Below, in pieces: positions 4,658 through 36,181 of a DNA stretch of 64,000 bases. Positions within the stretch are counted from its first letter, which is position 1. Each line of letters starts with the position of its first letter. Origin of the DNA: Methanosaeta sp. PtaU1.Bin060 (lineage in GTDB: Archaea > Halobacteriota > Methanosarcinia > Methanotrichales > Methanotrichaceae); NCBI GenBank assembly GCA_002067365.1, contig MVRK01000130.1, positions 1 through 64,000 on the forward strand, in the 5' to 3' direction. The translations under genes were made by a program, and so were the position numbers. The notes under the pieces were generated by a model that worked only from the letters and a program-made list of their open reading frames with translations, ran no database searches and was not told where the DNA came from.

Positions 4658-4865
4658 GGGGCTGTGGCCTAGCCAGGTAGGGCGACGGGCTCCAGCGGTA
4701 TATTTGATGATGAGCAACGGGTCTGCTGAGGCCTCTCGACGGGGAGGCCGTTGATGATCCGTTGGAGCACTGAAATGGGTTGTTATCAGCCACCGTTTCT
4801 CGGGCTGTTGACACTTCAGTATCGGAGAGACCCGTCGATCGTGAGTTCGAATCTCACCAGCCCCA
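4658..4865 (+). tRNA. tRNA-Trp (CCA) with a 134-nt intron
   Basis: Exons are 4658-4695 and 4830-4865. The acceptor GGGGCTG pairs with CAGCCCC, discriminator A. The anticodon stem ACGGG (4685-4689) pairs with CCCGT (4831-4835), and the anticodon CCA is at 4692-4694. The intron sits after position 37. The splice site is a textbook bulge-helix-bulge: central helix CTCC (4690-4693)/GGAG (4824-4827), 3-nt bulges AGC (4694-4696) and AGA (4828-4830), and inner helix GGTA/TATC. Cleavage after the second nucleotide of each bulge gives exactly these exon ends. The intron itself is a guide RNA (separate entry). Confidence 0.95.
4696..4829 (+). ncRNA. Box C/D guide RNA within the tRNA-Trp intron
   Basis: The intron contains box C ATGATGA (4707-4713), D' CTGA (4726-4729), C' TTGATGA (4751-4757) and D CTGA (4770-4773). 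The guide before D contains TTGGAGCA, which pairs with GCTCCA of the 5' exon. The fifth base upstream of D faces C34 (4692). The guide before D' contains ACGGGTCT, which pairs with AGACCCGT across the intron/3'-exon junction, and its fifth base faces residue 39 (C4831). This matches the known archaeal tRNA-Trp intron that directs 2'-O-methylation of positions 34 and 39. Here residue 39 is C, where as I recall it is U in Haloferax. Box and pairing positions are read directly; methylation is inferred. Confidence 0.9.
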
Positions 4866-33697: not shown

Positions 33698-33706
33698 CTT
33701 AAATAC
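33698..33706 (+). promoter_or_regulatory. TATA box of the rpl18e operon
   Basis: CCTTAAATAC centred near 33702. At the usual spacing of 26-27 nt, transcription would start near 33728, that is, at the first base of the structured leader. Confidence 0.6.
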
Positions 33707-33729
33707 TGGGCGAATACTCGATTAGGTAT

Positions 33730-33822
33730 TCCGCACAGGGCCCGAAAGCCCTGGGCGCATGGACCGGCAGGTCCGAACGCGCGCATAGCGCGTGAGTCGG
33801 TCTATATCGAGACCATGCGGAG
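33730..33822 (+). promoter_or_regulatory. Five-helix leader RNA sequestering the rpl18e Shine-Dalgarno
   Basis: Closing stem P1 pairs 33730-33735 (TCCGCA) with 33816-33821 (TGCGGA), extendable by one U-G. Inside are four perfect hairpins: P2 36-41/48-53 (CAGGGC/GCCCTG), P3 61-65/70-74 (GGACC, loop GGCA, GGTCC), P4 77-82/88-93 (ACGCGC/GCGCGT) and P5 33799-33803/33810-33814 (GGTCT/AGACC); P2 to P4 numbers are 337xx. The Shine-Dalgarno GGAGG (33819-33823) is largely inside P1, 6 nt before the ATG. A TATA box places the transcript start at P1. This looks like a cis-regulatory RNA, perhaps for autoregulation by a ribosomal protein. Ligand unknown. Confidence 0.75.
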
Positions 33823-33829
33823 GATTGAG

Positions 33830-34192
33830 ATGACACGTTCAGAAAAGACTAACCCAAGATTAGTCCGACTTATCGGCGATCTTAAGGCGGCCTCTCGCGT
33901 GAATGGATCTCCCATCTGGCGCGATGTGGCCAAGAGACTGGAGAAGCCCAGGCGCAACTATGCTGCTGTGAACTTGAGCAAGATCAACAGGCACACGGAG
34001 TCCAACGACACAGTTCTTGTTGCCGGAAAAGTGCTGGCCTCGGGCGAGATCGAGCACAGCGTCACTGTGGCAGCCCTCAGCTTCAGCAACAACGCCATGT
34101 CCAAGATCCAAAGCGCTGGCGGGAAATGTCTGGCGATAGAGAAGCTGGTAGAGCAGCATCCCAAGGGATCTGGCATAAAGATTTTGAGGTGA
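33830..34192 (+). CDS. rpl18e: Ribosomal protein L18e
   Basis: A 120-aa large-subunit protein (uL15-related archaeal/eukaryal eL18). Recognisable by TNPRLVRLIGDL, IWRDVAKRLEKPRRNYAAVNLSKI and KGSGIKILR. ATG 33830 follows GGAGGATTGAG; an in-frame ATG at 33815 lies within the leader's stem P1 and is not used in my reading. First gene of the classic rpl18e-rpl13-rps9-rpoN-rpoK-rps2 operon. Confidence 0.95.
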   Translation: MTRSEKTNPRLVRLIGDLKAASRVNGSPIWRDVAKRLEKPRRNYAAVNLSKINRHTESNDTVLVAGKVLASGEIEHSVTVAALSFSNNAMSKIQSAGGKCLAIEKLVEQHPKGSGIKILR

Positions 34193-34197
34193 GACTG

Positions 34198-34617
34198 ATG
34201 ATAGTAGTAGATGCAACTGGGTTGGTCATGGGACGCCTGGCGAGCGTGGCGGCGAAGAGCCTTCTGGCAGGCGACGAGGTGAGGATCGTCAACGCTGAGA
34301 AGGCGGTCATAACAGGCAAAAAAGAGAGCATCTTCGGCGACTATGGCACCTCCAGGCTACGTGGCACTCGGGAGCGCGGACCCTACTTCCCCCGACGCCC
34401 GGAGATGATCCTCAAGAGGACTGTGCGTGGCATGCTTCCCTACAAGATGAGGCGCGGAAGAGACGCTTTATCCCGACTGAGAATCTATGTGGGAGTTCCA
34501 AGGGAGCTGAAGGGTGCGGCGCTAGAGCAGCCGGACGGGGCAAGGATGAGAGATGCGAGCAATGACAAGTATGTCGAGCTTGGAACCCTGAGCAAGAGGC
34601 TCGGCGCAAACTTCTGA
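34198..34617 (+). CDS. rpl13: Ribosomal protein L13 (uL13)
   Basis: A 139-aa large-subunit protein. VVDATGLVMGRLASVAAKSLL is the archaeal uL13 N-terminus, and IFGDYGTSRLRGTRERGPYFPRRPE and RTVRGMLPYK follow. Start at ATG 34198, 5 nt after rpl18e; the longer in-frame extension back to 34126 overlaps that gene and lacks conservation. Confidence 0.95.
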   Translation: MIVVDATGLVMGRLASVAAKSLLAGDEVRIVNAEKAVITGKKESIFGDYGTSRLRGTRERGPYFPRRPEMILKRTVRGMLPYKMRRGRDALSRLRIYVGVPRELKGAALEQPDGARMRDASNDKYVELGTLSKRLGANF

Positions 34618-34626
34618 GGGTTCGAA

Positions 34627-35025
34627 ATGAAGATAATCAATTCATCTGGAAAGAAGAAGACCGCTATCGCAAGAGCCACTTTGAAGGATGGAAAGGGCAC
34701 TGTTCGGATCAACAAGGTCCCAGTCGAGATATACGAGCCGCGGCTTGCCAGGCTCAAGGTCCAGGAGCCCCTCCAGATTGCCGGGGATCTTATCAAGGGA
34801 ATAGACATCGATGTCTTTGTCCGGGGCGGCGGCACCATGGGCCAGACTGATGCAGTGCGCACAGCCATCGCCAAGGGCATTGTGGAGTGGACAGGCGACA
34901 CGGCGCTTAAAGAGGCCTTCTCCGAGTACGACAGAAATCTCCTCGTCAGCGATCATAGGCAGAAGGAGAAGAAGAAGTTCGGAGGACTCGGTGCAAGGGC
35001 AAAATACCAGAAGTCCTACAGGTGA
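34627..35025 (+). CDS. rps9: Ribosomal protein S9 (uS9)
   Basis: A 132-aa small-subunit protein with the family's [19 protein letters not shown] start, [22 protein letters not shown], and the basic C-terminus [11 protein letters not shown] that reaches the P-site tRNA. Confidence 0.96.
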
Positions 35026-35031
35026 AACAGC

Positions 35032-35217
35032 TTGATTCCAGTCAGGTGTTTTTCCTGCGGCAGAGTGGTCTCTCATGTCTGGGAGGAGTACCGGGAGCGC
35101 ATCAAGACTGAGCCTCCCGGCAAGGTCCTGGATGACCTGGGAATAGACAAATACTGCTGTCGGCGTATGCTTCTTTCTCATGTGGAGTTAGTGGATACGC
35201 TCAGGCGGTACCAGTAA
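35032..35217 (+). CDS. rpoN: RNA polymerase subunit N
   Basis: A 61-aa subunit (Rpb10 homologue). Zinc ligands are in RCFSCGRVV and YCCRRM. TTG start with AGGTGAAACAG upstream, 6 nt after rps9. It helps assemble the Rpo3/Rpo11 platform. Confidence 0.95.
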   Translation: MIPVRCFSCGRVVSHVWEEYRERIKTEPPGKVLDDLGIDKYCCRRMLLSHVELVDTLRRYQ

Positions 35218-35226
35218 AAGGGAAAG

Positions 35227-35301
35227 GGGGTTGTAGGGTAGCCTGGTCCATCCTACAGCGTTCGGGACGCTGTGACCTGAGTTCGAATCTCAGCAACCCC
35301 A
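35227..35301 (+). tRNA. tRNA-Pro (CGG)
   Basis: Acceptor GGGGTTG/CAACCCC, discriminator A, anticodon stem CAGCG/CGCTG around loop TTCGGGA (anticodon CGG), T-arm CTGAGTTCGAATCTCAG. It lies between rpoN and rpoK, a position where several archaea carry a tRNA, and is probably cut out of the operon transcript. No intron. Confidence 0.95.
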
Positions 35302-35328
35302 TCATGCTCTTCCTTTTGAGGTGGCTAT

Positions 35329-35511
35329 TTGAAGGGTGAGAAATATACGAGATATGAGCGTGCTCGGATAGTGGGAGCACGCGCTTTGCAGATTTTCATG
35401 GGCGCTCCGGTTCTGATAGATAGTAAGAATTCCGACCCTCTCGAAATAGCGCTTGAAGAGATGAAGCTGGGCGTGATACCCATCACCGTAAAACGCGACG
35501 GTAAACGATAG
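35329..35511 (+). CDS. rpoK: RNA polymerase subunit K
   Basis: A 60-aa subunit (Rpb6/omega homologue) with the signature [21 protein letters not shown] and [24 protein letters not shown] start preceded by GAGGTGG. Confidence 0.95.
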
Positions 35512-35560
35512 GGTGCATAGTAGAATAAGGTAGGCGATATCAAAAAGGCAGGTGAATTAG

Positions 35561-36181
35561 TTGGAAGATGATGATGTGATTCAGGTAGAGGGAGAATACG
35601 AGACTCTCATACCGATTGACGAGTATCTTGCTGCGGGCGTGCACATAGGCACTCAGCAGAAGACGAACGACATGATGCCCTATATCTACAGGGTGAGAAC
35701 AGACGGATTATATGTTCTGGATGTTCAGTCCACGGACAAGCGCATCCGCCTCGCGGCCAGGTTCCTGTCCAAGTACGATCCTTCGAAGATATTGGTCGTC
35801 TCCGCCAGGCAGTACGGCCAGAGGCCTGCGACCATGTTCTCCAAGGCCATCGGCGCTTTGGCCAATGTGGGGCGCTTTGTGCCAAATACTCTCACAAATC
35901 CGGCCTTCAAGGGCTACATCGAGCCGGATGTGCTCATAGCCACAGACCCGAGCGGTGATGCCCAGGCGGTCAACGAGGCCGTGGACGTGGGGATTCCAGT
36001 CATCGCCCTCTGCGACACAAACAACATGACATCGAATGTGGACCTTGTGATACCCACCAACAACAAAGGGCGCAAGGCACTGACCCTCATATACTGGCTC
36101 ATGGCACGCCAGGTGCTGAGAGAGCGGGGCGAAGAGGACAGGTTCAAATACACAGTCTCCGACTTCGAGATGGAGTTTTAA
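35561..36181 (+). CDS. rps2: Ribosomal protein S2 (uS2)
   Basis: A 206-aa small-subunit protein; [33 protein letters not shown] and [10 protein letters not shown] are typical of archaeal uS2. TTG start after AGGTGAATTAG. No enolase gene stands between rpoK and rps2, unlike in some archaea. Confidence 0.96.

Follow-up and report, generated by a model that had tools for sequence, protein, structure and literature searches.

What does a compact RNA domain do when it lies between the promoter and the first gene of a ribosomal protein operon, and which of its parts does the work? The question is raised by 92 bases (33730-33821) located just before the rpl18e operon in the window, the whole 64,000-nucleotide stretch of Methanosaeta DNA that was analyzed. 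These bases form a five-helix RNA domain. We propose, with a probability of roughly 0.7, that it is a cis-acting ribosomal leader of the rpl18e-rpl13-rps9-rpoN-rpoK-rps2 operon, in which a protein, likeliest a ribosomal protein (r-protein) of the operon itself, would bind a three-way junction and block initiation of translation. Few cis-regulatory RNAs are known from archaea. A survey by Eckert and Weinberg (2020) added four archaeal r-leader candidates, two for S15 (Halobacteria and Methanomicrobia) and one each for eL15 and L4, and its main text leaves L18e unmentioned (PMC7247131). These candidates are likewise r-protein leaders predicted by covariation, but they belong to other operons. 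The preliminary description knew of no equivalent for the archaeal L18e-L13-S9-RpoN-RpoK-S2 operon, and the main texts of the open literature yielded no published description of one. Rfam (4227 models) returned no match to the leader, either at the gathering threshold or up to an E value of 5.

The promoter, leader and operon all lie on the forward strand. The first gene of the operon, rpl18e (33830-34192, ATG at 33830; Pfam Ribosomal_L18 / L27A), is followed by rpl13, rps9, rpoN, tRNA-Pro(CGG), rpoK and rps2 (34198-36181; Pfam and ARAGORN). By their Pfam assignments the genes of the operon mostly encode r-proteins, and an L13 gene was found downstream of rpl18e in 60 of 60 loci tested. Upstream, a TATA-box-like promoter element, CTTAAATA, is present where it had first been noted, although by direct reading it spans 33698-33705 and not 33698-33706. 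In almost every Methanothrix leader in which it was measurable, this promoter motif is separated from the first helix, P1, by 29-31 nt, and this near-constant spacing makes a transcript start at or just before P1 plausible.

Leaders were compared by family: f1 (genus Methanothrix), f3 to f7, and f15, a family outside the class Methanosarcinia. The f7 set comprises 54 leaders and probably represents the Methanosarcinaceae. Two alignments were used. Alignment A1, made plainly with MAFFT, covers 45 leaders drawn from families f1, f4 and f6; alignment A2 holds 52 distinct cores placed in a permuted register, as explained below.

The domain is opened by the P1 strand TCCGCA (33730-33735; minimum free energy (MFE) fold, with compensatory CG to UA changes in other families) and closed by TGCGGA (33816-33821; sequence, MFE fold and covariation), which overlaps the Shine-Dalgarno (SD) sequence GGAGG (33819-33823). 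In a relative, GGATCACCTCC is present at the 3' end of the 16S rRNA. Inside P1 follows the 6-bp hairpin P2 (33736-33753; CAGGGC 33736-33741, GCCCTG 33748-33753; MFE fold). Next, the strand GGC (33754-33756) pairs with GTC (33796-33798; A2, covariation) as G-C, G.U and C-G, and this short duplex is termed helix Y. The junction linker GCAT (33757-33760) conforms in A2 to a consensus RNAN with an invariant third A. It leads into P3, also termed helix X (33761-33774; GGACC 33761-33765, GGTCC 33770-33774; 5 bp, strong covariation). A GA dinucleotide that is invariant in A1 and A2 (33775-33776) separates X from P4 (33777-33793; ACGCGC/GCGCGT; 6 bp including A33777-T33793; covariation), whose closing A-U and C-G pairs are invariant in A2. 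A second GA, near-invariant in both alignments (33794-33795), separates P4 from Y, and the two dinucleotides could form tandem sheared G.A pairs. The 5-bp hairpin P5 (33799-33814; GGTCT 33799-33803, AGACC 33810-33814; MFE fold, covariation) then precedes the 3' strand of P1. An in-frame ATG (33815-33817) lies within the P1 3' strand, five codons upstream of the rpl18e start; it overlaps the SD region and is missing from some relatives.

Sequence reading and the MFE fold both place P1 to P5 at the positions given in the preliminary description. The unconstrained MFE of 33720-33840, a fold that contains all five helices, is -49.5 kcal/mol, compared with -39.3 +/- 3.6 for shuffles of the same segment (z -2.8), of which 2 of 200 were equally good. 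The proposal that P1 covers the SD holds for GGA, or three of its five bases, whereas the final GG is free. Occlusion of the SD was similarly upheld in part: the closing helix P1 is conserved and contains SD bases, but thermodynamically the effect is not clearly above shuffled controls. The folding model gave GGAGG in f1 a pairing value of 0.76, not clearly stronger than the 0.68 of upstream-shuffled controls, and SD pairing in f6 was lower than in shuffled controls. Thermodynamic occlusion, being little above the shuffled controls, was dropped as evidence, and the case for occlusion is drawn instead from the evolutionary conservation of P1.

Compensatory changes among relatives, whose absence had been named in advance as grounds for refutation, were found in P1 to P5, including P1 opposite the SD. 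RNAalifold, run unguided on A1, recovered P1-P5, with double-sided changes in 11 of 22 pairs. In counts that ignore relatedness, 95.3% of A1 cells were paired, compared with 20-52% when the partner strands were slid. The covariation score of A1, likewise ignoring relatedness, was 0.260 versus 0.183 +/- 0.008 in shuffled alignments.

The domain lies directly upstream of rpl18e in 45 of 45 f1 leaders and in most other Methanosarcinia. Outside f1, the leader is found before rpl18e in f4, f5, f6, f7 and one f3 genome. A covariance model built from A1 matched 92 of 238 genomes of the class, with one match each except for G098 (contamination 6%), which has two matches and two copies of rpl18e. Matches adjoin rpl18e wherever coordinates are comparable. 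Among 393 genomes sampled across the phylum, the model matched f1, f4, f6 and f15 only, with no stray match. Family f15, which was absent from the training set of the model, was found blind in all four genomes searched, each time just upstream of rpl18e. The f15 leaders have the full architecture by eye; plain MFE folding reproduces it completely in G254 and recovers only parts of it in the other three. When 40 regions upstream of rpl18e in other families were scanned, the junction turned up in f15 only. A dispersed element was considered and rejected, as the second pattern match in genome G145 falls within coding sequence and seems fortuitous; pattern matches in haloarchaea look like GC-rich background. 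The leader RNA is kept in at least two archaeal lineages, at the rpl18e operon alone.

The preliminary description had placed P1 at the centre of the element. The comparison reverses that view, since P1 is the least constant part of the domain, rebuilt across families and replaced in f7. It reads CCGCA/TGCGG in f1, CCGTA/TACGG in f4, f6 and f15, TCCAA/TTGGA in most f5 leaders, with one mismatch-bearing leader (L188), and GCCCTT/GAGGGC in the f3 genome G033. P1 contains SD bases with compensatory change in f1, f3 (G033), f4, f5 and f6, with the exception of one f4 leader (L056) that lacks a clear P1. The f5 leaders lack both P2 and P5, which reduces the minimal element to P1 and the three-way junction. 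The inner junction is retained in nearly every lineage of the class. Because P1 varies while the junction is retained, the putative binding site is probably the junction, and P1 is probably one of two devices by which the junction is coupled to the SD. Some lineages depart from the common layout in other respects. The f3 genus g13 (L073, L074, L164-L166) has lost the core, and a different pairing, GTGCC/GGCAC, appears from the sequence still to enclose the SD. In f4 (L057-L060, L206) and f6 (L197-L202, L207) an extra A/T-rich hairpin precedes P1, an f6 example being GAATCAT/ATGATTC.

The functional core, as judged from these comparisons, is a three-way junction of the order X-GA-P4-GA-Y-RNAN, of which two circularly permuted forms exist. 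Helix Y (GGC/GTC) closes the junction in f1, f3 (G033), f4, f5 and f6, where X takes the form of the hairpin P3 and most linkers read GCAT, ACAT or GTAT; in leaders of the Methanothrix type the junction thus arranged sits behind the SD-covering helix P1. In f7, X closes the junction as ATGTTC/GAACAT, using the bases right after the SD, and Y is the hairpin P5. Of the 53 f7 leaders that have the junction, 52 use the SD's own GGAG as the linker and one uses AGAG. All 6 bp of helix X are intact in nearly all of the 54 f7 leaders, and its variants include the compensated ATTTTC/GAAAAT as well as G-U versions. Both permutations have in common the terminal pairs of X (GAAC/GTTC-like), the terminal G-C and U.G of Y, the closing A-U and C-G of P4, the two GA dinucleotides (one G nearly invariant) and the third A of the linker. 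Across the 52 distinct cores, the terminal G-C and U.G of Y are invariant, and its third pair is CG, AU or GU across the permutations.

When the cores were aligned in the permuted register (A2), 97.5% of cells were paired, compared with 11-55% when slid, and double-changed cells numbered 98 versus 21 in shuffles, both counts ignoring relatedness. The covariation score was 0.423 versus 0.196 +/- 0.013 in shuffled alignments, again with relatedness ignored. The anchor rule of A2 was written after inspection of both permutations. Five rows were mis-cut by the anchor script; three of these (L060, L069 and L201) were corrected by hand, and two (L068 and L236) collapse into existing rows. A strict junction rule, formulated post hoc and with some of the first-listed f1 matches being alternative linkers, describes 43 of 45 leaders in f1, 5 of 6 in f4, 6 of 7 in f5, 8 of 9 in f6 and 53 of 54 in f7, and 0.6% of shuffled leaders.

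We lean somewhat towards the view that a single protein-binding junction was circularly permuted by evolution, with the SD built into the site as a junction strand in one family and, in the sister families, kept outside it and locked by a clamp helix that can be reinvented. If true, nature would directly exemplify the permutation of an RNA aptamer whose regulatory target stays the same. A further pairing is predicted in f7, where an outer helix TCTTAC/GTGAGA (g35) competes with P5/Y. The conserved upstream TCTTAC (L062, L072, L076, L238-L247) could base-pair with the GTGAGA in helix Y, in a manner mutually exclusive with P5, and this pairing is possibly a second conformation.

Under the proposed regulation, the protein would bind the junction when free r-protein exceeds rRNA. 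Once bound, it would stabilize the closed form and keep the 30S subunit off the rpl18e SD; when the protein is absent, the junction would be loose and initiation would proceed. The coupling to the SD is provided in most families by the closing helix P1, whose 3' strand includes SD bases, and in f7 by the SD GGAG itself serving as the junction linker. The most economical candidate ligand is an r-protein encoded in the operon, because the operon consists mostly of r-protein genes, because the element is unique to it, and because leaders have been proposed for L13 operons in bacteria. We would rank uL13 first by precedent, followed by eL18, uS9 and uS2. The bacterial leaders precede L13-S9(-S2) operons (PMC7247131), namely E. 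coli rplM-rpsI and the rplM-rpsI(-rpsB) motif of Bacteroidia. These belong to the same class of element and precede an equivalent gene set. Feedback regulation of an L13-S9(-S2) operon is what they would have in common with the archaeal leader. The latter occurs in a different domain of life before an operon with eL18 as its first gene, and it has no Rfam match and no established homology to the bacterial leaders.

Mimicry of an rRNA site was tried and rejected. Local alignment of the leader to 16S and 23S rRNA of its own group did not exceed shuffles, and the shared 8-10-mers (GGCGCATG near the 23S 5' end, and CGTGAGTCGG in one genus) are not conserved in rRNA across the range of the leader. 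A covariance-model search of rRNA was empty, and a scan of rRNA with the junction rule gave isolated matches within the range of shuffles and without a conserved site. Such mimicry is common among r-leaders, but it is not required.

The alternative that survives best, although we regard it as doubtful, is that the ligand is L7Ae or another kink-turn (k-turn) protein, the GA/GA beside a G-C being a k-turn-like site through which L7Ae would link this operon with the general r-protein/sRNP pool. By way of k-turns in mRNA leaders, L7Ae represses its own synthesis and that of other archaeal proteins, and this autoregulation is conserved, including in a Methanosarcina leader (PMC5539422). In A2, one GA stands in tandem opposite the other; the C-G pair on the C-helix side and the A-U pair that follows the G.A are both invariant. 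Such a core resembles a k-turn that needs protein to fold, as k-turns with a Watson-Crick 3b.3n pair, in the account of PMC4382518, do not fold in metal ions alone. The G.A geometry is itself putative, however, and the third helix would lie on the bulged strand, unlike in described k-junctions (PMC10573300). The three-nucleotide bulge expected directly before the G.A is absent, the linker RNAN and helix X intervening, and in f7 there is no bulge of any kind between X and GA. A simple k-junction was therefore rejected on topology, as the third helix would not be on the non-bulged strand. The k-junctions of the TPP riboswitch and DUF-3268 (PMC4005666, PMC10573300) are also three-way junctions with tandem G.A candidates, but the third helix of the rpl18e leader would be on the opposite strand and f7 has no 3-nt loop before GA. 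With the autoregulatory leaders of L7Ae in archaea (PMC5539422, PMC6298567) the rpl18e leader would share repression of translation by a motif containing tandem G.A pairs; those leaders are simple k-turns on l7ae and a few other mRNAs, whereas a three-way junction on another operon is seen here.

It is unlikely that the domain is a ligand-free structured 5' UTR, such as an RNA thermometer, an mRNA stabilizer or a translation brake of fixed rate. P1 does extend into the SD, and long 5' UTRs, with a mean of 165 nt, are found on mRNAs for r-proteins in a related methanogen (PMC5378194). Yet the junction sequence is conserved, across both permutations, beyond what a stability element would need, and it stays in place while the helices around it are rebuilt. 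That conservation, with compact, nearly fixed junction nucleotides and variable stems, is aptamer-like and would also suit a riboswitch sensing a metabolite or ion through the junction, which we consider very unlikely. Riboswitches usually precede several genes of one metabolic theme, whereas the element occurs as a single copy per genome, beside rpl18e only, in the genomes that carry it. Finally, operator palindromes acting at the DNA level, or inverted repeats arising by chance where a spacer is rich in GC, would explain why several short repeats of this kind lie close to a promoter but are strongly disfavored, given covariation that includes G-U intermediates, a strand-specific position from promoter to SD, the loss of pairing on sliding by one position and the rarity of the junction in shuffled leaders (0.6%).

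The rpl18e element is present at one operon only, both in the majority of the methanogen class as sampled and in a single family beyond that class. It provides an initial clue to the way in which archaea may balance the L18e, L13, S9 and S2 proteins, and RNA polymerase subunits, with rRNA. Its two permuted forms are a strong natural test of the binding-site nucleotides. If f7 represents the Methanosarcinaceae, as appears probable, it includes genetically tractable species, in which the model would be directly testable.

Several tRNA-related features were also observed. The tRNA-Pro(CGG) gene (35227-35301 in the window) lies inside the operon between rpoN and rpoK, and a tRNA-Pro gene occurs near the same site of the operon in 20 of 22 relatives scanned. 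Elsewhere in the window, at 4658-4865, a split tRNA match without an ARAGORN call encloses a match to the C/D-box RNA sR3, an arrangement that fits an intron-borne guide RNA. In many further lineages of this phylum, a gene resembling a tRNA (by eye, tRNA-Leu) ends a few dozen bases before rpl18e (L250, L257, L258, L263, L279, L282, L283, L286 and L287, all from families outside the class) and occupies the place that the promoter and leader have in the Methanosarcinia.
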